DNA of 64,000 nucleotides from Schizochytrium sp. TIO01. Lineage: Eukaryota > Sar > Bigyra > Thraustochytrida > Thraustochytriidae. Shown piece after piece: positions 10,132-35,469 of this stretch. Under the pieces are notes generated by a model that made no database searches, was not told the DNA's origin, and saw only the letters and a list, made by a program, of their open reading frames with translations. The stretch's first letter is position 1, and the number at the start of each line of letters is the position of its first letter. The stretch is from contig SMSO01000037.1 of NCBI GenBank assembly GCA_004764695.1, forward strand, positions 666,247 through 730,246. The letters are read 5' to 3'. The position numbers and the translations under genes are program-made.

Positions 10132-10828
10132 ATAAGTGAAGTAATTTTAACAATTTGAAAGAAATACCTAATTGTACTGTTTAAAATTTAAAAAAATAAA
10201 AAATGTTATGTGTAAACGAGGCATTTATAATAAATGATAGATAATAGATAAATAATGATGGAAACGAGTGCTCGAAGTAACGAAAGGCCGGGAGAATCAA
10301 GGATCAGATGATATATATATATCTATACACCTGACAATGGTCGAAGAGCTGTAGTTTCTGCGAGTTCAATGAAAGTATGCGAGTTACAAAGTTATGCCAA
10401 GAAAGACCTGAGTTCTTCTCGCGAAGCAGGCACCTCGAAAGGCATGTTTGATGGACCTCAAAGCAGCAGCAGAGAATGAGAGAGAGAGAGAGAGAGAGAG
10501 CAGTTGTCTATATCTGCCTTCGGTAGAGAAGAGAAGAGGCACGGCCGCCGCGCTTAGCACTCCCTGCGATGGCTAGGCTCGAGGCCAAGCTGAAGCGGGA
10601 GTTCTTGTAATCGATGCTCTATTCACATCAAATCGCCGGTTGAGCGATCGTTCCGAGAGAGACTGAGCCTTCTTTTCATCAAGTTACTTCCTAACCAAGG
10701 TGTTCTTACCTACAGCACTGTTACTGTTACCTCTGTATTTTCCCCTATTATCACTCTGTTTTCATTTCATTTTCCAAATTTTAAATAATTCATTTAACCT
10801 TGAATCAAACCAACTTATCTCCTAGATT

Positions 10829-10950
10829 TTAAACTACAAAATTTGCAAAACTTGCATTTCATAGAAGGAGCTAAGACTCCATCACGAGCTAGTTAGACTA
10901 ACCCGCGACTCAATGAAATGATTTTTTTTAAATCATGTCCTTGGATAGGT
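10829..10950 (-). ncRNA. Candidate guide-RNA (omega/fRNA) scaffold and right end of the IS607/Fanzor element
   Basis: In TnpB/Fanzor systems the guide-RNA scaffold spans the 3' end of the nuclease gene and the element's right end. Read on the minus strand, this segment starts in the last codons of tnpB and contains GTTAGTCTAAC (10902-10892, short stem), GGAG-TCTTAG-CTCC (10880-10867, 4-bp stem) and TGCAA-GTT-TTGCA (10856-10844). The relic copy keeps GAGTCGCGG, a TGGG/CCCA stem around the same CTTAG loop core, and TGCAAGTTTTGCAAG. Conservation in a copy whose genes are dead is suggestive, but could simply reflect common descent. The RNA itself is inferred, not seen. If correct, the guide would start near 10828 and read leftwards. 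Confidence 0.45.
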
Positions 10951-12376
10951 AGCGTAAAAGGATGCCTCTGGCGGCATGGACATCACGGTCTGCTACATGG
11001 TTGCACTTGGGATTAGGGCATTGGAAAATCTTGGATGCCCCGAGGTTATGGTGGAGGGTACCACACTCATTGCATGTTTTGGAAGTGTAACTTTCTTGGC
11101 AAAGAACAAGCTTGCACCACGGGAACATCTCAGCCTTATGAATGAGAGCCTGGCGGAACCCAAAATGGGACCAACGACACATCATTCGAACAGACTTCTT
11201 GGAGATCCGTCGCTCCATCCTCCTGCTCATCTTAGAGGTTTCGAATTTGGGCAAGAGAACAACACGATAGTTTTCACAAAGCCAAAGCGCGAGCTTGCGG
11301 TGAATCTCAGTGATCTTGTTCTTGATCTTGAGTTGGGCGCGATAGAAGGCGCGCTTCAAGGGGGTGTTGAAATTGTCTTTATCACTGGATGCAGTTTTCT
11401 TTTTATCAATGCTGCTTTGGATCTTATCAACGCGGCGACAGAGATAGAATATGGTTCTAAAATCTTTCCCTGTGCCCCATTCAATGGCGCGGCCATCGGC
11501 GTCATACATCGTCTGAAACGAGCGAACACCCGGGTCTAGAGCAATGACACCATGGTGCGCCTTGGGTGCCTGGTCCATTGGACGCTTTTTTTCTTCTCGT
11601 AAGAAGCAGAAGTAGACATGCCCAAGGCGATTCATTTGCACACGCATGGCGTTCGAAATCTGGTCGGGGAACTTTTCTTTACGTGTTCGGAATTTTTTAA
11701 GAAAGTCGGAGGTCTTTGATTTCTTCAAATTCCAGGTACGTGCATTCACTTCGAAAATCTGTGATTCATCACGCTTGGTCCGAAACTTATAAAAAGATTG
11801 CTCATGAACTTTCTTTTGTACAGCGAGTTCTTCGTTTTTGGCTCGTCCCAAGTTAATAGCCTTGAAGAAATCCAGAATCCCGGAATCACGGATAGCCTGT
11901 GGGACCTCGAGAACCCATTCAGGAGCACCATTCCTTTCTTTAGATCGAACGGCTTTCTTTTCTCCATAGAGGGTACCATACGTTTGGGGATTCCCATCTT
12001 CATCTACTAAAACCTGCTTCGTCTTGGAATCCTTTTTGATGCACGCTTCTTGATGCAATTTGATGGCTTCTTTCTCGCCCTTCGCCACATCTCGATGAAA
12101 CGCAACGCCAGTATTGTAGGCTCTTCTAGTGACACCAAACCATTTAAGCAACTGTGTACGCTGATCTTTAGTAGGGTATACCCTGACCTTTCTGGCACGG
12201 ACAAGGTCATATTCTTTCTTGGAGGTCTTGCGCGCCTTCATGCGGGCTCGCTTCTTCCTCGCTGCGTCGTCGCCGTCTATTTTGCGCTGCTCGTTTTCCG
12301 TGATGCGATGCCACAAAGACGGTGATAATTCCGAGAAGGTCTTTGGTGAAGGTGTCTGAGTCTCCGGTATGTGCAT
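10928..12376 (-). CDS. tnpB: TnpB/Fanzor2-type RNA-guided DNA endonuclease (RuvC-like, zinc finger)
   Basis: TnpB/Fanzor proteins cut DNA at sites chosen by an RNA made from the element's right end. Counting from ATG 12376 (482 residues), the N-terminal part has RKVRVYPTKDQRTQLLKWFG and RRAYNTGVAFH at about 62-93, typical of the family. RuvC-I is IALDPGVRSF (Asp281), RuvC-II is LLPKFETSKM (Glu379), and the zinc finger is CNECG plus CPNPKCNH (Cys435, 438, 453, 458). RuvC-III is ADRDVHAARGI (Asp465). In RuvC-II the glutamate sits about three positions later than in the common bacterial form with Glu-Asp-Leu, which I recall as the rearranged site of Fanzor2. The frame stays open to 12865 across tnpA, so the start is ambiguous: 12376, 12403 or 12241 (437 residues; smallest overlap with tnpA). 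Confidence 0.88.
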   Translation of the reverse strand: MHIPETQTPSPKTFSELSPSLWHRITENEQRKIDGDDAARKKRARMKARKTSKKEYDLVRARKVRVYPTKDQRTQLLKWFGVTRRAYNTGVAFHRDVAKGEKEAIKLHQEACIKKDSKTKQVLVDEDGNPQTYGTLYGEKKAVRSKERNGAPEWVLEVPQAIRDSGILDFFKAINLGRAKNEELAVQKKVHEQSFYKFRTKRDESQIFEVNARTWNLKKSKTSDFLKKFRTRKEKFPDQISNAMRVQMNRLGHVYFCFLREEKKRPMDQAPKAHHGVIALDPGVRSFQTMYDADGRAIEWGTGKDFRTIFYLCRRVDKIQSSIDKKKTASSDKDNFNTPLKRAFYRAQLKIKNKITEIHRKLALWLCENYRVVLLPKFETSKMSRRMERRISKKSVRMMCRWSHFGFRQALIHKAEMFPWCKLVLCQESYTSKTCNECGTLHHNLGASKIFQCPNPKCNHVADRDVHAARGILLRYLSKDMI

Positions 12377-12905
12377 CTTGGCCGTGTACCACGAGTTTGA
12401 CATTTTTTCTTTCGAAAAGGTGTTCCAGGAGGTCGACTGCGATTCGCGCAAGTCGGTCGCGGTGCATGACCACAACTTGGCCGATTCCGCCGCGGTCACA
12501 GGCGTCCAGTAGGGAGCACAGGCCTTGGCGTTTGAAATTGACCCCACTACCGATGTCTTTGTAGACGGCGGAAGCATCTGGGTAGGCGCGCTGGAGATCG
12601 CCAACCTGGCGTTCGAGGTCCTCCTTTTGCTTGGCCGAGGACACTCTGGCGTAGATAACGGTACATCCAGAGCTGCGTTGCTCGCGGCCGATGGAACCGC
12701 AATCAAAGATGCGCTCAACATCGTCACTGGCATAGACGCGCTTGCCTCCGGGGAAGCGCGCGAAGCGCACGCGTCCGCCATCGGCCCAGCCCCGAAGGGC
12801 GCTTGCTGAGACCCCAAACTTCCGGTGAAAGAACTTTGCTGGTTTGTATTCGAGCTTTGCTCCACTTGCAGTGTTTGGAGCTTGGCGGTTCCTTGGCCTC
12901 CCCAT
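12207..12905 (-). CDS. tnpA: IS607-family serine recombinase (transposase TnpA)
   Basis: This 232-residue protein would cut and rejoin DNA through a serine nucleophile to excise and insert the element. Residues 20-68 are the MerR-like helix-turn-helix typical of IS607 TnpA (FGVSASALRGWADGGRVRF, then GGKRVYASDDVERIF). The catalytic domain follows: VIYARVSS at 83-90 holds the nucleophilic serine with KQKEDLERQ after it, IGSGVNFKRQGL lies at 118-129, and the RDRLAR arginine motif at 149-154. DLLGIITVFVASHHGKRAAQNR at 189-210 is the usual C-terminal helix region. The ATG at 12905 sits directly after GTAAGAAA and is conserved in the relic copy, which fixes the start. The 3' end overlaps the nuclease gene in another frame. 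There is no sign of a frameshift or a lost catalytic residue. Confidence 0.9.
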   Translation of the reverse strand: MGRPRNRQAPNTASGAKLEYKPAKFFHRKFGVSASALRGWADGGRVRFARFPGGKRVYASDDVERIFDCGSIGREQRSSGCTVIYARVSSAKQKEDLERQVGDLQRAYPDASAVYKDIGSGVNFKRQGLCSLLDACDRGGIGQVVVMHRDRLARIAVDLLEHLFERKNVKLVVHGQDAHTGDSDTFTKDLLGIITVFVASHHGKRAAQNRRRRRSEEEASPHEGAQDLQERI

Positions 12906-15900
12906 TTTCTTACCTAACCTCCACTTCTTATTAAAGATCTAACTAAGTATAATATATGATTAATATGAAACAAGCACATCGAAATATAAGTTATCGAAAT
13001 TTTAACGGTTTTTGTCATACTGCATATTTCGACCTATGGCGGACTTATAGATAAATTGTAGAAACACATAGATTACCTCAAGTGCTGTAAGAGACAAAGC
13101 CTTTCTTCCCTCACGGGCTTCTTGGCTTGCCATCTGCATTGAGAGGGAGGGACGGGCAGTCCTCTCCTCCGCCCCCCTCCCGCCTTGCCGCTGCTTCCTC
13201 CTCGCTCTCTGGCTCCCTCCCTCCCTTCCTCGCTTGCATGCCTGCTCGCTTGCTTGCTTGCCTGCTTGCTTACTCGCTTCTGGCTAGAACAGGCCCGAAT
13301 CAAACGCTAGAGAGCCTCGTCCTCTCTGCCTTGACACGTCCCCGCAGCTGCGGTGTTCTTGTGGAAGGAAGTGCATCGCCAACTCCCTCTCCCTCTCTGC
13401 TGCTCTGCTCTGTTTATGTGTCTCTATTACTCACTCGCTCACTCACCTATGAGGGGAAAAGGCAAAAAGGCCCTTTCGCCCTCTCAGTTTCGAAGATGGT
13501 CTCCCTGCGCAAATAAACTCACGCGTGGGTTCTTTCTTCTTGCTCTTCTCGTCCTCCTCGCCGCCATTGTCTTCGTCGTTGTCGCTGTCGTCGTTGCCGT
13601 TGTCGCTGTCGGTGTCGGTGTCGGTGTCGTCGTCGAAGCTGGAGCGAGCGGCTTCGTTTCACTGACTTTGGGGGCGGCTATAGCAGAAGCAGTACTAGCA
13701 GCAGCGGCTTTGCCAGGCCAGAGCGCTTCGGCGTTGGCAGGGGCCTCGGTACTGCCTGGCTTCCACCGTGCTCGGGAGTGGGGGAGGGGAGCGAAACGCA
13801 GCTGCCTGTTTGCTGACGGGGCGGGTTTGGCGGAGCTAGATGGAGGCCAGCGGAGGATGGCGCTGGAATCGTCTTCGTTCTTGTTCAAGACGAGCTTTGA
13901 GCGAGCGAAAGTTTCGTATAAATAAAAGCGCAGTGTGTGTGCCCGAATGCGCTGCTTTTTTCTTTTCTTTTCTTTTCTTTTTGTTTCGTTTCTTTTCGTT
14001 CCTTTCTCTTTGGCGTCTTCGTTTCATGGCTCTTGGTAGTCGGATTGCCATCGGTAGTGATAGACTCGAAGCTTCTTCTACTCAGATATCCATTTTAGCT
14101 ACCTGTCTTTTGTTTTGTTTTTGTTTGGTTTGTTTGTTTGTTGGTTGGTTGGTTGGTTGGTTTTATCGGGTCTTGCCGTGGAAATTTAGATTTCCTGGCA
14201 ACCCTGGAGCATAATGGGAAATCGAGTTTGGTCGGTCGGAGGGAGCTGAGGAGCAATTTGTTGCTATAGAGCCTCTAGCTGCCTACTGACTTGCGCTGTG
14301 TATATCCTCCATCATCTGGTGTATATTCTACTTCGGTCTGGACGCTCTCTCCTTTGTATTTTATCTTCTCTCGCTCAGTCTTCGGAGTCCTTTGTTGTAT
14401 TTTAATTCTATTGTGGCCTATATCTATGTAATTAAATAAATCCAATTAAATCAAATTATATATGCGTAATAATAATAGTAATTTAATAATCATAAAATAG
14501 CAACATAACACAATACTATAAACTTTCAAGTACGTAGAGACATGATAATGATAGATAATGCAGAAATCAAAGTGACAGCGATAGATAAAGAAAGACGAGA
14601 GCAGCCTTCGCCACAATAAAAAGCTTATCAACCACCTAGTCTCTTGATCTATCTACCAGCTAATCTTTCTTTAACTTGTAAGGGGTCGAATTTCGGGAAT
14701 ATGAATGTGACAGTGGAGGAGGCCCGACTTGCCCTCCTCGTGCCCTCTGGCGCCTTCCCCTTCAAATTGCCTCCTCAAGGCTTCTCCGCCTCGAGGCTGC
14801 TCTGAGAGAGAAAGAAGCAAGAATAAGAAGAACAGAACAGAACAACACAAACAACAACAAACGAGTTTTCTGTCACCTCTTTGTTGAGCAAGCACGCTTG
14901 CTGGCAAACCTTGCGCGCCTCCCTCCACACAGCGAAAAAGCACTTCCCAGCCGAGGGAGATATTGCTACGCTGATTTCACTCAGCATGAGAAGCACTTAT
15001 ACAGAGGCAGTGGAGCTCAGTAAAGAAACTTGAAACAACCAGCGAAATAAAGGAGTAGTTTTACAGTGCAGCATAGAGGGGGGAGGCGAATTTTGAGAGG
15101 AACGCTGCGGGAGCTTCACGAAAGGACCACAGTGAAGAAAAAAATGAAATGACACTTGGAGCTGAGCAGAGGAGATGGAAGGGATTCCAGTCCTGCAGCA
15201 AAGCACTGGTCTTTCCTTTTGAGGGGTGATGATTTTTTTAATTTATTTTTTTCTCTTTCCTTTCTTTCTTTCTTTCTTTCTTTCTTAGTTTATAAAACCC
15301 TCCTTTTCAAACTTTTATTCGCGTGAAAAAAAATAATGATCAAATGAAAAGGACCCCGAAACTCGAAGTTGAAGCAAGAAAGACAAAATTTTGCGGTGCT
15401 CGCGAAGACCTGAGAAAACGACCTGCCTGTGGATTGGGGGTGGGGAGGGAATCCACGGCGCTGGGTTAGCGTAGCCTATAATTTCCTCGAGGTGAGCGAC
15501 GCCCAAGTCGCCGTCCTCCACGCGCAACCGTCGGAGCTGTGGCGATGAATGAAGGAATGAATGAATGAATGACCTCCCCGAGAGATTTAGATTGGCAGAA
15601 ACAAATAAAGAAAAGGAAAACGATTTCCTTTCATCTCCGGCACCCCGCTCTCTTTCATTGATAACGAATAAGTACCTCACTAGCCAGCCCAACCACGGAG
15701 CGGCGGCAGGTTTTGAGATCGAGGAGAGCGTATATAGAATAGATCCATTTACAGAGAAGAAGCAATACCGATCGCGGCTTACTTCAAGTTTGCAGGAGTA
15801 ATACAAATGGTAAAGACCAAATAAAACTCGCCGCTTCTGGGAAACTGCGTGCAAGCCGCCATTGACAGTAGACGGAAAAGCCAAATTTTGTACTCTTGTA

Positions 15901-21348: not shown

Positions 21349-21769
21349 GTACGATATATAGACATTAGAGATATCTTCTATCTGTCTGTCTGTACCTGTC
21401 GGTGGCAGCACTTTGGCATCTGACTGAGTAGGTCGCAAAGGGGCATATCGGGTCGATTGACGAGCCTGAGCTGAGCAGGCCGCGGCACTAGTTGAGAAGA
21501 GCTCAAGCCGGAAAACTTGAGCTTTTGACTTATTTAGGTGTGCCTCTCTCTTTTCTTTTCCTTTCTTATTTTTTATTCCTTCTTCCCCCTTTGTGTGTAC
21601 ATTGTTGAGGTCTAGCGAGGACCTCCTGGCGAAAACAAGCGAGTAAGCAAGCAAAAGGTCGCAGATTGGCGTTTATTTTTGTACATTGTGGTCTTCAGTC
21701 GTCTCGGATGACGATTTGAGAAACGACAAATCATTTTAGCAAATCACATTGAATGCCAATAAGCGCAGA

Positions 21770-21847
21770 ATGCAGAATAGGAACTCACAGGAAGGACATC
21801 CAGACCAGAGCTTAAGTCTTCGACATTTTAAACAATTGCAGGAACTT

Positions 21848-21879
<32 letters not shown>

Positions 21880-24010
21880 AAGAGAAGAGCAGCAAAAGCA
21901 ACTTCAGCGACTCCAAGAAGAACAGCGCCGCCAGCGCGAAGAAGGGCAACAGTCCAGCTCCCAGGAACAACAGCAGGTATATTACCAACAACAGACTGCA
22001 CACGTCTCCAACCAAAACATGATGAATCAGAACTTCTCGCAGCAACCACAACAGCAACCGCAATTCCAAACCCAGCAACAAATGGACCAGAACCAACAGG
22101 GCCAGCAGCAACAGATGATGCAGCAACCACAGCAGCAGCCCATGAATTATGGTGGCTTCTTTCCCGCCTATGGTGTCTACATGGGAGCCCCAGGTAATCC
22201 CCAAGGCACAATGATGCAGGGAAACACACCACAACCTTATATTTACTACGGTGCATACCCTATGGGAATGCAACAGCAACAGCCACAACAACTTCAGCAA
22301 CAGCCCCAACAGCTTCAGCAGCAACAACAGCAACAGCAGCCAAACCTTTCGCCACAATTACAATCTCAACAACAGAGTAGTAACGGAATGACACAACACA
22401 AACCGGAAAATAAGTCAACCTTCTCCTCATCGTCATCAATACCCAGCACATTTCAAGACTCGAATCAAAAATCATCAAACCGTCAGTCCCTCACGAACCA
22501 GAAAAACCAATTGCAACAGCTTTTGCAGAACCTGTCATCCTCACAACCGCAGCAGCAGCAGCAACAACAACAACAAAACAACCCGGCATCTCATGGAATG
22601 CCAATGTCATCGTTTACCGGACCTACCATTCGCGAGTTCGGCTCGTCGTCGGGATCTAGCAGTGGAAGCAGCGGTGGAAGCTCAAGTGATGAAGAAAGCA
22701 GTAGCAACAGCAGCAAGAGCGAGAAGAACGCCTTGACATCCGCACGCGGTATGTCTTCTTCAAGCCCCTCCTTCAATCCCAACACATCCAACAATGGTAA
22801 TTCCTCATCCCCTTCCAACGCATCACCAAACTTCAACAACGGCAACATGATCAACCACTCCGGAACACCTCCTCCAAACATGGCGTACCCGCAGCAGCAG
22901 CAACAACAACAGATGCAATTCCCCGGCATGCCAATGGGCCAACAGGCCTTTCCAATGAACTTTGTCATGCAGCCCCAGCCGCCCTATCAAGGTTACCAAG
23001 TCGATAATCAACAGAACGGTAATGATGGAAATAATGGCAAGTATGGACCAGGATTTGTCTTTGCTCCAAATAATGCTTTTCAGTCATTTGCACCTGGCTA
23101 CCCAATGTTCTACAGCCAGCCGCAAAATATGCAGCCAGGACATGTATTCATGATGCCTGGTATGCGTGCGTACGAGGAAGACCTCAACGCGCGAAGGCAG
23201 AAAAGCAATAGCTCTAAATATCGAGGAGTATCTTGGCATAAACGAGGCAAAAAGTGGATTGCGCGAATCTGGATCAACGGGAGAAGCGAACATCTCGGTG
23301 TCTACTCATCTGAGATTCAAGCAGCTCTGGCTGTCGATGAACGCCTAGTGGAACTCGGGGAGAGTGGCCACTCGTTGAACTTTCCAGATATTGAAATCCG
23401 CAAGCAGCTTGCTGAGTCGTACAAAAAGGGCGCTCGTAAAATCAATGGTTCCTCATCATCGTCTTCTTCAAATCGAGGTGGTGCTGAGCAAAATAACTCT
23501 GACTCTAACTCTAGCGATAAGAATTCCAGCACCGGTTCCACAGATAAGGACACATTATCCCAAGACCCTGGTGAAGATGGCCAAAACTTGGCAAGGAGGG
23601 CACGCTCAACCTCTTCGCATGTTTCATCCCACTCGCGCCACCATCACCACCATCACCACCGTGCGCCTTCGTCCATTACAAGTTTGCCGCAAGATCCACA
23701 AAACATTTTGTCACGAGTAGTTTCTGGATCTCAAGGTTTGAAGCGTCGTGCTCTTGACTCTTCCAATGATGAACTGACCCCTGATGTCCCTAGTGGTTCT
23801 TCCCGCTCAAGCGGTTCTGGATCCAATGGCTCGCCTGAAAAACGAAAGTCCTCGGACGAAGAAGATAACCTCGACAGTGGCGAAAACAATGGATCCCACG
23901 CGTCTCGTATCAAAGCTTCCTCGACGTCTTCAATGAAGAGCTCTTCAAGCTCAACCTCCAAACACAGTGGCACCACATCCACAACCCTCGGAAAGAGGAA
24001 ACACCCCTGA
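21770..24010 (+). CDS. AP2/ERF-domain DNA-binding protein with Gln-rich N-terminus
   Basis: Probable sequence-specific transcription regulator. One AP2/ERF domain lies at about residues 481-541: SKYRGVSWHKRGKKWIARIW, then LGVYSSEIQAALAVDERLVEL and LNFPD, with the YRG element and the conserved aromatic/basic strand residues present. Residues 20-280 are rich in Gln (CAA/CAG runs), 285-370 are Ser/Asn/Gly-rich and 370-470 are rich in Pro, Gln and Met. After the domain come Ser-rich stretches, a run of seven His near 628, and a basic KKR-type tail (GKRKHP at the end). The frame opens at 21740 after TAG; TTG at 21749 is not a credible eukaryotic start, so I use ATG 21770 (746 residues). The domain order fits an activator with low-complexity activation regions, which is inference. 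Target genes are unknown. Confidence 0.85.
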
Positions 24011-30759: not shown

Positions 30760-33700
30760 ATGAGTACATCTTTGCTCACGGGGCGCACAGAGAATGCGAC
30801 CAGTGTGAGTATTGACGCCATTCTCGTCTTCAAGAAGTGGATATTTGTTGGATTTTATGAAATATGGAAACTTGAGATCGTTGGAAAGCTGTTCTTTCGA
30901 ATCTCAACCTATGTTCAAACGCTTCAATTGATGTACCTCACTTTCGTATTCAACAAACCTGGGTACTGGTTAAATGGAGTGTCCAGCGTCATGATCAAAA
31001 TGCTTCAACCCCTAGGAGAAGTAATTGATGTAACAAATAGCTTCAATAGTTTCATCTGTGGCATTGTTGGAGTAGGAACATGTATCTGGTTCACATTTAT
31101 CGCTTTTAATGTCATCGCCCAAGATCATACACGAAAGCGCCCTCCCAAAAAGCATTTGATTACCGGAGTGGCTTGGCTTCTACGGTTGCAGCAAACTATC
31201 TTACTCCAGCCATTTCTAACTATCTTATTGCGCTCATGGGGGTGCCCAGATATTGCCACAGATATTTTTACTTGTGGCTCGCCACAGACAATACTCAAGA
31301 ACGGAGTTATTGCCACCTCTATTCTTATTCTGGTTGGCTTTTTCCCACTTAATGCATTGTTCATCATTCAAATTGCCCCCACATCGATTCACTCAGGACG
31401 TACTCAATCGCAAGGATTCCGTGCTCCGCATGGTCGTGTCGAATATGCAACAACTATGCTTCGAGCAATTGCAACCCTGGTTATTATTAGCCTTGAGGTG
31501 AGCAGCGCAACTTTTGCTTCGTTTATGGAAATTGTAGGCATTGGCACCTTAATTGCTGCTGGTATTGGCCTCGTTGGTGCTTACTGGTGGTATCTGCCTT
31601 TCTATGACATGTCTTGGAACTTGATAGGTGCAGTTACATACTCAATTTTTCTTTGGACGACAATCGCACTAGCGTGCGCACATGCAGTTAGAGACGTAAA
31701 TGATTATAGTTCTCTTTTGATATGGATTACAGGAATGCCATTTCTGCTTTATTCCACCAGTGCACAAGTTTACCAGCGCATACTGTATCTCGGGCGTTCA
31801 AAGGCTCCACTTTCCTTGAGTCCTTATGTTGCTGAGTTGCAGCTCCGGCTACGGCACATTACCCCATTAGTGAAAACTGGGATGAGACTTCCGCAAGTCG
31901 AGGAATTTTGTATGGAAGGAAACGTTTTTTCAAGTTATCGGGAGGCATTGGATGAGTTTGCCGATTGTTCATATTTTCAGCTTCTTGTAGCAACTCTAGT
32001 TTTTGTTTCCGGGAAAAAAATGGTGTTTGGATTAAATAGAATCAAATGTGCACGAGAGCTTCCTCGGCAAATCGATCTCGAATTTTCACTGTTTTGCTTG
32101 AATATGAACATTCGTGAGAAGCAAGCTACCACTGCAGGTGCCATGTCATATATGGAGTTTGATAAGCATCTACATAAATCTCGAGAGCTTATTGTAAGAT
32201 GCCTCAAACTTATGCACAATTTTTGGTTTCGAGTGATGAATGGAGGTCGTATGGATGAACTGATTCAGTCTGGACGAGCAATAAGTCAAGCCTCCAATGA
32301 GTGTCGCAAAACGATTCGTAGGCTTCTCAAAATTTCTGATTCTTCTTCTGTAGCCCTACGATGGCACGCAACCTATGTGGCGTATGTCCTGAACGATATT
32401 CCTACAGCTGTTAATATAATTTCACGCTGTCGAGCAGAAACAATGGAAAACGAAAGAGCAGGTTATGCGGTTTGTATTATTAGTGCTGATCTCGCCAGTC
32501 TAGGCAAGATTCTCGAGGTAACAGAGGCCACATGTGATCTGTTCGGGTATGAGCGTGTTGAGCTCCTGGGTCGAAATGTAAAAATGTTATGCCCCGAGCC
32601 CTTTGATGCTGTGCATGATAATTTCATTCGTCACTTTCTTGATGAAGACAGCGACTTCAGCACAAAAACACGGCGCATTTATGGCCTTCATCATTCAGGC
32701 TATCTGATTCCCGTCGACTTCGTTATCACTCCGAGCACAAATGCCAGTGGAGATTTGATTCTCATTGGAACTTTTATTGAAAGACCTTTGCCAGGTGACA
32801 CGCATCTTTTGCTTGTAAATGCATTGAATTTTATAGTTACATCAGCAAGTGAAGATAGTGTAGTGGCTCTCGGACTGAACCCCGATGAACTTTTCTCAAT
32901 GAGTCTTCGAATCACTGATGTGCTTCCTAACTTTCTTCAGCGGGATAGTAGCCTATATTATTCGACGGAACGTACAATTCTCGTTGGCGGGGTGCCGTAC
33001 GGCGTACGAGCTCGCAAAATGGAGTTCCAATCCCCGCACGATGCTAAAACGAACTTTCACATTGCAACGTTTATAGTCATCTTTACTCGGAAAGAAAAGC
33101 TTACAGAGGAAGAAGAGACTATGCTCACAATACCTCGTGTTCGCAGTAATAGATTTTCCTTCTCTAAACGCAATTCAATGAAGATGGGAGCAAGCCGTCG
33201 TGGTACTTTGAGGGCTGATACACGAGATATCATTGGTTTGAAGGCTAGTCCAAGCGCTGGGCAAATGACAGTCAAAACAGGAGCTCGTAAACGAAGCCGT
33301 CAGAGCTTTTTAGGGCTTGACTCTGGGCCTGATGGAGAAAGTCAAACCTCATCTATGCAGGACGGTTTGATCCCACTAACACGGCAGATCGAGATTCTGC
33401 GTCGCAGGTTAGCTCTTAATCTCCGTACGCAAGATCCCATCGTTGCTGCGTTTAGCCGTTTTTCTATCTATTTCAATATCACATGTTTTTTAACTGCGGT
33501 TTTGAATGCTTTTCTCGCAGTTAGATGCTATCGTGATTTTGAAGATGAAGTCAATAGCATGGCAAGAGTAATGGAAGAAGGACGTTTATTTGCACTTGTA
33601 CCGAGTTACCTTTTTCATGCTGAAAATTATCCCTTTCCAAGTGTCTTAACAATGCTATCTGAGGCCGCATCTAGCCTTTTTCAGTTACACCTTGACGTGA

Positions 33701-35469
33701 TTGATACTGCGCACTCAACATCTGTGTCAAAGCTTAATGAGTACTTGTATGCACCTAACCTAGAAATGCCGTGGCCTGTGGGCGAGAGCCTTATTGACCA
33801 GACTAGCTTTCATATGAGCGTACTTTCAGCATTGAATTACATGGATGATATTCTTGAAGACGCCAGTAATGGCACCTTGCAATGCGAGACTGAGAGGTGC
33901 GAGGCAGTCAACTCATTGATCAAAATGGAGCCCATTGTAAAGGCCCAACAGATTGCGGACTTTTATTCTGCAAGAGCTCAAAACTTGCTGCACGAGCAAG
34001 AAATCATTGATGCGATGTATTTGGGCTTAACATGTGTTATTCTAGTCTTCGCTTTTTTCATTGGCTATTTACCTCTTATGACAAATGTTAGCAACCAACG
34101 GGCTAATGTTAGGCAAGCATTTCTCAGCATTCCTTCTCACATGTGTTCATATTTAAAGCAAAAGGCCCTTGAACGTCTAAGATCTATCAAAGAAGGACGT
34201 CTTCCCACAGCAGCTCGTTTGCAAAATGATCAGAATGAGCTTAAAACAGACAGCATAAAGTTTTCTGGAGGCATCGGAGCTGCGAAAGGTGACCATATGG
34301 ATGCTAACGATGCATTTCTAACAGGAGCAGTAAGCACTGACAGTGGGACGTGGGCAACACAATTTCGAAGTCGAAAACGAATGCAAGGACCTGGGCGTCG
34401 AACAAGTAGTGGCTCAGGACCAGGTAGTAAGGCATCAAGTAAGGTTGCGCCAATGCAAGAGGTAGTCAATGAGGCTGCTATACCTCCGCCTAGCAACCAA
34501 GCAGATGATATTCAGAGAGCTCACTCAACATCATCTGCCCTTAGTCGTAAGTCGTCTGTGCGGTCTGCAGCTCATCTTTTGGAACGCATGTCGACTGTTA
34601 TCTCCATGGCCACAGATGTTAGACATACACGTCCTGACCGAGAAACTTTAGAAATCGCAGAGGAATATATTTTGATAATGTCAGCCAGGATAGTTAAGCG
34701 CTGCAAAGCCGCCTTTCGCATTGGATTTACCTATTGGTGTATGTTGGCGCAATTCTGGTTCGTCAGGGTACGAGACAGTGAACATCTTGAAGCGATGCCT
34801 AGTATGGCGTCTGCTGTCCAAGTTGCAGGCTTGCGCTATGTACATATACATGCAGTCATGTTTTGGGCTGTGCAGCCTGCTTCTGAAGAGGCCAATTTGC
34901 AGCTTAAAGAAAATATTGAAAAGGCATTGCTTTATCATCAGGCTCTTACATTCGGCAATGAAACTCTTGGAGTGAAACCCTTTAGCTCAACCGAAGGAAG
35001 TCTGTTTGAACTTTTATTTACTGATGCATGCGACGCTAACTGTACAATCTATAGCTCAAGTGTTGAAGACTTTCGAAAGGATTCCGACGTATATGTTGAA
35101 CAATGTCTTGCAACAAACTTGAAGCTTGGTTTATCGTTTGCTCTTAACGATTTTATAGGAAAAGCTTCAAATGTCCAGATAGCTCTAGATGCGTACTTGC
35201 TAGCTGAAGATATTGCAATAGAAGAGCAACTATATGTCAAATTTGAGTTGGCCCAAGCAGAACTTCTTGACTTCCGTTCGCAGATTTTCATGGGCGAGCA
35301 AATTGATCAAGCTATGCAGATATATACTAATGCTATCGAGTCTAGGGTGGCAGAGATTTTTTGGGAAAAACTCACAAGCCTTAAGTATCCTAGCTGGGTT
35401 ATTGCTGGTTGGGCGCTCAATATCACAACGAGTTTTCAAAGAATTAGATCAAGAACTAAGCAATATTAA
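30760..35469 (+). CDS. Large multipass membrane protein with PAS domain (TmcB/TmcC-like family)
   Basis: This 1569-residue protein has at least six hydrophobic segments between residues 40 and 345. A soluble middle part includes a PAS domain at about 570-690 (ILEVTEATCDLFGYERVELL, then RNVKMLCPEPFD). A PAS-like stretch follows at 690-790, then a basic, serine-rich linker. Further membrane segments lie near 900-925 (FNITCFLTAVLNAFLAV) and 1085-1110 (GLTCVILVFAFFIGYLPLM). This arrangement is typical of a protist family annotated as PAS-domain/TmcB-like proteins, thought to be membrane sensors; the signal is unknown. ATG 30760 has AAG just before it. The ORF ends in a short unconvincing tail, and the +1 frame from the T6 run at 35357-35362 continues to 35551 with a hydrophobic segment followed by an amphipathic helix, so the true C-terminus may lie there. 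Confidence 0.75.
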   Translation: MSTSLLTGRTENATSVSIDAILVFKKWIFVGFYEIWKLEIVGKLFFRISTYVQTLQLMYLTFVFNKPGYWLNGVSSVMIKMLQPLGEVIDVTNSFNSFICGIVGVGTCIWFTFIAFNVIAQDHTRKRPPKKHLITGVAWLLRLQQTILLQPFLTILLRSWGCPDIATDIFTCGSPQTILKNGVIATSILILVGFFPLNALFIIQIAPTSIHSGRTQSQGFRAPHGRVEYATTMLRAIATLVIISLEVSSATFASFMEIVGIGTLIAAGIGLVGAYWWYLPFYDMSWNLIGAVTYSIFLWTTIALACAHAVRDVNDYSSLLIWITGMPFLLYSTSAQVYQRILYLGRSKAPLSLSPYVAELQLRLRHITPLVKTGMRLPQVEEFCMEGNVFSSYREALDEFADCSYFQLLVATLVFVSGKKMVFGLNRIKCARELPRQIDLEFSLFCLNMNIREKQATTAGAMSYMEFDKHLHKSRELIVRCLKLMHNFWFRVMNGGRMDELIQSGRAISQASNECRKTIRRLLKISDSSSVALRWHATYVAYVLNDIPTAVNIISRCRAETMENERAGYAVCIISADLASLGKILEVTEATCDLFGYERVELLGRNVKMLCPEPFDAVHDNFIRHFLDEDSDFSTKTRRIYGLHHSGYLIPVDFVITPSTNASGDLILIGTFIERPLPGDTHLLLVNALNFIVTSASEDSVVALGLNPDELFSMSLRITDVLPNFLQRDSSLYYSTERTILVGGVPYGVRARKMEFQSPHDAKTNFHIATFIVIFTRKEKLTEEEETMLTIPRVRSNRFSFSKRNSMKMGASRRGTLRADTRDIIGLKASPSAGQMTVKTGARKRSRQSFLGLDSGPDGESQTSSMQDGLIPLTRQIEILRRRLALNLRTQDPIVAAFSRFSIYFNITCFLTAVLNAFLAVRCYRDFEDEVNSMARVMEEGRLFALVPSYLFHAENYPFPSVLTMLSEAASSLFQLHLDVIDTAHSTSVSKLNEYLYAPNLEMPWPVGESLIDQTSFHMSVLSALNYMDDILEDASNGTLQCETERCEAVNSLIKMEPIVKAQQIADFYSARAQNLLHEQEIIDAMYLGLTCVILVFAFFIGYLPLMTNVSNQRANVRQAFLSIPSHMCSYLKQKALERLRSIKEGRLPTAARLQNDQNELKTDSIKFSGGIGAAKGDHMDANDAFLTGAVSTDSGTWATQFRSRKRMQGPGRRTSSGSGPGSKASSKVAPMQEVVNEAAIPPPSNQADDIQRAHSTSSALSRKSSVRSAAHLLERMSTVISMATDVRHTRPDRETLEIAEEYILIMSARIVKRCKAAFRIGFTYWCMLAQFWFVRVRDSEHLEAMPSMASAVQVAGLRYVHIHAVMFWAVQPASEEANLQLKENIEKALLYHQALTFGNETLGVKPFSSTEGSLFELLFTDACDANCTIYSSSVEDFRKDSDVYVEQCLATNLKLGLSFALNDFIGKASNVQIALDAYLLAEDIAIEEQLYVKFELAQAELLDFRSQIFMGEQIDQAMQIYTNAIESRVAEIFWEKLTSLKYPSWVIAGWALNITTSFQRIRSRTKQY

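Follow-up and report, generated by a model that had tools for sequence, protein, structure and literature searches.

A recently active IS607-type Fanzor2 transposon in a thraustochytrid genome, with a nuclease N-terminal domain that appears to be overprinted on the transposase gene

Does the nuclease gene of an IS607-type Fanzor2 transposon begin where the transposase gene ends, or does it reach back into that gene in a second reading frame? The question is raised by a locus on contig SMSO01000037.1 of Schizochytrium sp. TIO01, of which a stretch of 64,000 nucleotides (the window, whose coordinates are used throughout) was analyzed. On its minus strand, which carries all features of the element, lie tnpA for a serine recombinase of 232 aa (12207..12905) and then a gene for a Fanzor2 nuclease, whose longest ATG-started open reading frame (ORF) covers 10928..12781 (617 aa and stop). 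A preliminary description made from the letters had reported an apparently intact IS607/Fanzor2 transposon with nuclease motifs inside a eukaryotic genome, which our results support, with both genes in IS607 order, which domain models and coordinates confirmed. The order stands; a start of the nuclease ORF at the tnpA end does not, the frame being open far into tnpA. We hold with high confidence that the locus as a whole is best explained as a resident, recently active IS607-type transposon in which the nuclease N-terminal domain is overprinted on tnpA.

The nuclease frame of the window copy is open across tnpA up to 12865, where 3.3 stops would be expected and 0.8% of codon permutations are stop-free; further in-frame ATGs lie at 12733, 12721 and 12577 (a start at 12577 would give 549 aa). 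From related loci, tnpA genes were kept if they were ≥450 nt long, had a start and lay ≤300 nt from tnpB (25 of 46 viral and 33 of 80 bacterial loci, the latter mostly cyanobacterial by title, plus the window), and 34 were left at <70% amino acid identity (19 viral, 14 bacterial and the window). Synonymous codons were then permuted within each gene, retaining the tnpA protein and its codon use. The +1 frame held 54 stops against 123.9 expected in the viral genes and 27 against 80.0 in the bacterial genes; stops in the +2 frame amounted to 0.97 and 0.98 of expectation, respectively. Counted by quarters of tnpA, the +1 stops were 17, 3, 0 and 0 in one set (expected 18.0, 18.7, 25.5 and 14.4) and 34, 10, 0 and 0 in the other (expected 25.8, 28.3, 38.4 and 23.1), with none in the 3′ half against about 101 expected. 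Without deduplication the 3′ half was free of +1 stops in all 59 tnpA genes (33 bacterial, 25 viral and the window), whereas their third frame carried a mean of 7.2 stops and was stop-free in none. The putative overprinted domain was placed in this 3′ half, at 12212..12577 (residues 69-190 of 617), on the open and conserved frame and with a presumed start. An extension reaching to the tnpA start was considered and dropped, as the first quarter shows no depletion (17 against 18.0 and 34 against 25.8).

Such an open frame might also be a side effect of constraint acting on tnpA itself, whether through codon bias, RNA structure or DNA sites within it, with the nuclease starting at the tnpA end. 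The frame does sit within a conserved gene, and in the three long forms examined the NCBIfam TnpB models begin at residues 185-202. The permutation, however, already holds the tnpA protein and its codon use constant, and there was no overall stop depletion in control genes (stop ratios 1.02 for 68 genes of the viral loci and 1.01 for 34 of the bacterial loci) or in ordinary IS607 tnpA (0.94; 14 tnpA genes from 40 of 204 plasmid records).

Residue conservation was assessed by comparing the frequency of the modal +1 residue in each alignment column with the expectation from each gene's codon use (Bonferroni p <0.01). Significant columns numbered 21 of 195 for the 34 genes and, with the two sets taken singly, 9 of 198 for the bacterial (14 genes) and 16 of 196 for the viral (19 genes); of the 21, all but one lay at alignment column 139 or beyond, roughly the tnpA 3′ half. 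Examples are a Trp in 30 of 34 genes (6.9 expected), a Trp in 33 of 34 (8.7) and a Leu in 34 of 34 (12.2); the first belongs to the near-invariant SW[FY] motif of the extension, whose Ser130-Trp131 codons lie at 12389..12394. The codon of Trp92, near-invariant in 67 aligned proteins, lies at 12506..12508. Ordinary IS607 tnpA genes (n = 14) showed no significant column among 201. By itself the column test leaves the choice of frame undecided; the stop counts settle it for +1.

Variation within the host genome was examined in the younger set of copies of the element (22 copies, L009-L030, 80-100% identity, on 11 contigs). Among 17 of them the overlap is less variable than single-frame sequence: changes silent in tnpA that alter the nuclease numbered 15 in 587 weighted chances, compared with 102 in 1,347 for silent changes in single-frame stretches (p 6.6e-6); changes silent in both frames (1 of 13) are too few for judgement. 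Of the 17, 6 carry a tnpA stop and none has a stop of the nuclease frame within the overlap; stops in the third frame total 84. Positions 12577-12210 are free of nuclease-frame stops in 21 copies, decayed ones included (read in the register of L009, with up to 6 gapped codons in the decayed copies), and 20 of the 21 retain the ATG at 12577. If the domain is overprinted on tnpA, base changes in the overlap would be tested in two proteins.

The extension, of about 100-120 residues with the motifs P[YF]W, LW and SW[FY]S, was found at 72 of the 80 bacterial loci (43 with a full-length tnpA ORF and 29 without) and at all 46 viral loci (36 with and 10 without). It thus occurs without a full-length tnpA at 39 loci, at some of which the lack may reflect a contig end, and a tnpA without the extension occurs at one. 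One or more tnpA-frame stops lie inside the extension at 32 of the 118 extension-bearing loci, near-copies counted; L069 has 10 of them and no tnpA match. Because the extension is kept with the nuclease when tnpA dies, it is probably needed for stability or for binding of right-end RNA or DNA.

The same persistence bears on a TnpA-TnpB fusion made by programmed frameshifting, which the open frame would serve. Where a pair was detected, the nuclease frame is the +1 frame of tnpA at 45 of 45 viral loci and at 64 of 66 bacterial ones, a constancy that suits such a fusion, and one decayed copy (L025) reads from tnpA into the Fanzor frame. Yet a single slip site requires openness only after it, whereas here stops are already rare in the second quarter of tnpA and absent from the whole 3′ half, and the frame outlasts the loss of tnpA; we consider a fusion very hard to credit.

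In an AlphaFold2 (AF2) model the extension forms a helix and a strand beside the nuclease core. It aligns with the N-terminal region, containing an NSWY motif, of the solved mimivirus Fanzor2 L79 (PDB 9b0l), which shares the core fold and was compared as a protein alone. Among the structure alignments listed, 9b0l alone spans the extension at high Z, and some lower-ranking ones begin at model residue 120-154. A PDB profile search with the extension returned one chain at E up to 10, Foldseek matched Fanzor1 chains at E 1.3e-5 to 2.8e-4, and no Pfam family was found for the extension at E up to 1. Since frame and motifs survive in loci with a broken tnpA frame such as L069, and a solved Fanzor2 has a matching N-terminal region, an open frame that merely follows from tnpA constraint seems to us highly improbable.

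Several points weigh against overprinting, beside the contig ends mentioned above. The +2 frame was significant in 15 of 195 columns for all genes and in 6 and 4 for the bacterial and viral genes, which also suits a by-product of tnpA constraint; this is expected because the same bases are held, and the strongest +2 columns fall mostly at the same codons. Control genes reached p <0.05 in 2 of 68 and 1 of 34 cases, and the loci are phylogenetically non-independent, some being near-copies. The extension is missing from eight of the 80 bacterial loci, L192 being the one of these where tnpA is intact. The extension profile, which matched 60 of 120 homologues among the matches listed and 39 of the 40 that are 560 aa or longer, was made from the window and 41 of the same loci tested. 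AF2 confidence is low for residues 1-82, in some stretches of the extension and, in a cyanobacterial model, at 66-85 and 99-136; translation of the extension at these loci is presumed on sequence grounds. Weighing these points, we conclude that the front domain of this Fanzor2 appears to be overprinted on the transposase gene, with a presumed start and role.

TnpA matched the Resolvase family (Pfam PF00239, E 3.1e-20) and scored 144.2 bits with the NCBIfam IS607 transposase model NF033518 (cut-off 110), which marks it as an IS607-type serine recombinase. The nuclease matched PF07282 (E 1.4e-13) and PF12323 (E 1.2e-9) and bears the Pfam and NCBIfam model names of a Cas12f1-like TNB/OrfB protein; with 88.8 bits it fell short of the cut-off of 100 of the NCBIfam model guided_TnpB (NF040570), which a cyanobacterial (162.3) and a viral (152.3) relative passed. 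Residues are numbered here in a 479-aa form or in the 617-aa long form (Glu425 = Glu563). The RuvC-I Asp of the DPG motif (Asp278 of 479, D416 of 617; 11534..11536) and the RuvC-III Asp of the DRD motif (Asp462, D600; 10982..10984) are invariant in the alignments, and the four-Cys zinc finger CNEC...CPNPKC (11003..11074) is conserved. Also invariant is Glu425 (E563; 11093..11095), the RuvC-II Glu at the alternative position as defined in PMC10711439, which sits in QESYTSKTC directly ahead of the zinc finger. The preliminary description had counted both Asp and the four Cys among the catalytic motifs, correctly, but its catalytic Glu379 (Glu376 of 479 by the offset from its Asp281 and Asp465, the canonical TnpB position) is not among the invariant or near-invariant columns, Glu425 being invariant instead. 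In the part of Yoon et al. (PMC10711439) that defines it, the Fanzor fingerprint is DPG plus an alternative Glu before the zinc finger, and Asp278, Pro279, Gly280 and Glu425 are all invariant here. The 64-Mb genome, the IF-2 match given below and the tnpA score further place this nuclease in a eukaryote with an IS607 tnpA, as for Fanzor2. The alignments support that it would carry the motifs of a working enzyme.

The element is a member of a known IS607/Fanzor2 kind, while we came across no earlier description of the N-terminal domain that appears to be overprinted. ACa-1/-2 of Acanthamoeba, ISvMimi and CRv-1 likewise combine a serine-recombinase TnpA with Fanzor2 and, as described in the relevant sections of Bao and Jurka (2013, PMC3627910), make no target site duplication; the present element differs, so far as the literature searched shows, in host group, and its copies, empty site and overprinted domain are described here. 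The cyanobacterial pro-Fanzor IS607 TnpBs treated in Yoon et al. (2023, PMC10711439) likewise have DPG, the alternative Glu and an IS607 TnpA, and most of these loci were found here to have the same overprinted extension; they differ in their bacterial host and have 27-36% identity to the window nuclease in the best core segment (80 loci kept, several of them from Arthrospira sp. PCC 9108). Ordinary IS607 elements (the 14 plasmid-borne ones, such as L201 of H. pylori) share the TnpA-TnpB order with a short border overlap or gap, and 9 of their 14 TnpBs have a D-hydrophobic-G motif (five lack a pattern match, one of these truncated). Unlike in the window, their tnpB frame is open just 6-174 nt upstream, with no overprinted domain. 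Overlapping and separate ORFs are given as structural types of IS607 in the part of PMC9956272 concerned. No overlap is mentioned in sections 5 and 13 of PMC3627910, the main text of PMC10711439 does not mention overlap, N-terminus, open reading frame or frameshift, and PMC11423790 does not mention overlap or tnpA. In the literature searched, which covered few subscription journals, we found no description of tnpA/Fanzor2 overprinting and no paper joining Fanzor and thraustochytrids.

It is very likely that the IS607 lineage with DPG and alternative Glu (cyanobacterial pro-Fanzors and viral and eukaryotic Fanzor2s) encodes the nuclease N-terminal domain in an alternative frame of tnpA. Each gene would then be tied to the other, and only after tnpA loss, as in L069, would the domain turn into an ordinary part of a gene. 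If so, a long, old and widely kept same-strand overlap joins a transposase and an RNA-guided nuclease in the lineage that founded the Fanzors. The locking of the genes may then explain why Fanzor2 travels with IS607 tnpA, and proteins annotated, or constructs expressed, from the tnpA end would lack a conserved domain.

Is the family still alive? The host assembly comprises 64,063,054 bases in 37 contigs. Counting the copies, a check that the preliminary description had proposed, gave at least 62 element DNA matches on 13 contigs, among them the 22 younger copies, with resolvase model matches at 27 or more places and at least 108 nuclease protein matches, the older ones with many stops; all are lower bounds, the best candidates having been scored. 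As younger and strongly decayed copies share the genome, the family has long been resident. That the family is dead or dying, its open ORFs having survived by chance, appears unlikely, although one or both ORFs are not intact in 14 of the 22 younger copies and pN/pS (nonsynonymous to synonymous polymorphism) of the Fanzor core is 0.43 among 17 of them. Six of these 14 have a nuclease ORF without an intact tnpA (L011, L020-L024), one has tnpA without an intact nuclease (L015), and seven are truncated or have both ORFs broken. Against a dying family, both ORFs are open in eight copies (L009, L010, L012, L013, L014, L016, L018 and L019, the last with a lengthened nuclease C-terminus), and L012 and L016, at different loci, differ at 5 of 2,201 sites (0.23%). 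A 95% identical protein of 601 aa (P0001), named as a transcript ORF, also occurs in the transcript-derived MMETSP set. A protist with recent copies offers Fanzor2 for study in its own host.

Internally deleted derivatives that retain both end regions were also seen, as neighbors of L010, L016 and L017 and at G000:C7:537100-537999 and G000:C36:1580277-1581076. An older copy lies within 1 kb of 3 of the 22 younger copies (chance 0.0055 each, P 2.3e-4, with 72 older places listed); the chance is understated because that list is incomplete. Five copies (L021, L022, L023, L026 and L030) have in common a 294-bp insert near tnpA codon 27 with telomere-like CTAACC repeats, and since they occupy different sites this form with a dead tnpA was apparently mobilized in trans.

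How did the element reach this host? The host was taken as a thraustochytrid because the IF-2 gene of the window matches Hondaea fermentalgiana at 71% identity with 77% of the query covered, the next matches reaching 52-53%. It may belong to Aurantiochytrium. Two proteins labeled Durusdinium trenchii (P0017 and P0242) may be thraustochytrid contamination of that assembly, which is suspected for P0017 because the second IF-2 match bears the same label. A quick nuclease tree was built from 170 rows (255 sequences, 244 of them long enough, deduplicated at 80%) with Shimodaira-Hasegawa-like approximate likelihood ratio (SH-aLRT) support only. The window copy fell into a clade of 19 rows (support 98), all of metagenome or eukaryote origin and none of them a virus row, nested in a 90-row set with one virus row; the metagenome rows could conceal viruses. 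Seven canonical IS607 TnpBs grouped together (support 100), and bacterial rows stood in other clades, which does not bear out the placement among bacterial contaminants named in the preliminary description as counting against it. Contamination was judged unlikely, given a contig of 5.0 Mb and younger copies spread over 11 of the 37 contigs.

The preliminary description had further suggested a recent import through a virus. Fanzor2 with IS607 TnpA is indeed known from large viruses, as reported in sections of PMC3627910, and the pair was seen on IMG/VR contigs, some of them possibly mis-sorted bacterial contigs. Among the matches listed, however, viral relatives reach at most 37% identity in long segments (short or partial segments up to 45-47%), and viral contigs scanned with a single protein yielded no relative, profile scans giving distant ones. 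Together with the deep relic layers in the same genome and a clade without virus rows, this leaves a recent import through a giant virus, as a single event, with very little probability; the family may have an old viral or bacterial origin. Further viral contigs (L240-L273 and L275-L289) carry more distant TnpB relatives (best segments 21-47%) without an extension-profile match.

Where does the element begin and end? Aligned copy ends and the empty site of a sister copy give a full length of 2,201 bp at 10819..13019, so that the transposon of the preliminary description stands and its limits of 10829-12957 do not. The left non-coding end is 12906..13019 by copy alignment, and the right end closes with an AG dinucleotide at 10819..10820 (CTAGGAG in the window copy, CTAAGAG in most copies). 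Copy flanks mark the CAG at 13020..13022, of which AG would be the crossover dinucleotide and CAG a candidate target-adjacent motif (TAM). Flanks were compared in 17 of the 22 younger copies, the boundary being placed by hand in 4 of the 17. The last bases of the left flank are C in 14, A in 14 and G in 16 of the 17, and the right flank begins with A or T in all. Joined at one AG, the flanks of L013 matched two other genome places straight through at 82% identity; the empty sites read AATTAACA-ATAA against the filled site AATTAACAG...AAGAG-TAAC. The insertion leaves one shared AG and no longer target duplication, as in an IS607 crossover, for one insertion and two paralogous empty sites. The ancestral AG is presumed because these empty sites read AA at the core, and it counts against the assignment that there is a single insertion with two 82% paralogues; the joined flanks of other copies had no comparable spanning genome match. 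The data fit a crossover at a shared dinucleotide in the IS607 manner.

At the right end, 10819..10940 is predicted to be structured (minimum free energy -34.9 kcal/mol, z -4.20) and a candidate omega RNA or right-end RNA (reRNA) scaffold. Across 16 distinct younger copies 97.2% of cells are paired in the fold. Covariation in these copies was not above shuffles, which is a point against this reading, RNAalifold on 27 copies gave five right-end pairs without two-sided change, and Rfam had no match in the window at gathering scores. From the element anatomy and published IS607 TnpB work, as far as described in the main text of PMC10711439, we infer the following steps. TnpA would excise the element as a circle and recombine it into a target of the CAG type, AG against AG. 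A transcript of the right end would act as scaffold for a guide that comes from the right flank and begins below 10819. Fanzor2 with this RNA might then recognize the restored empty site (TAM about CAG) and cut it, and the copy would be regained by repair. Our guess, consistent with its persistence, is that the overprinted domain stabilizes or positions the nuclease on its RNA.

Elsewhere in the window, two long ORFs were noted by eye. One, at 30760-35469, is uninterrupted over 1,569 aa and shows what look like many membrane spans along with a PAS-like stretch; the other, at 21749-24010, encodes 753 aa rich in Gln and Ser with an AP2-like stretch.

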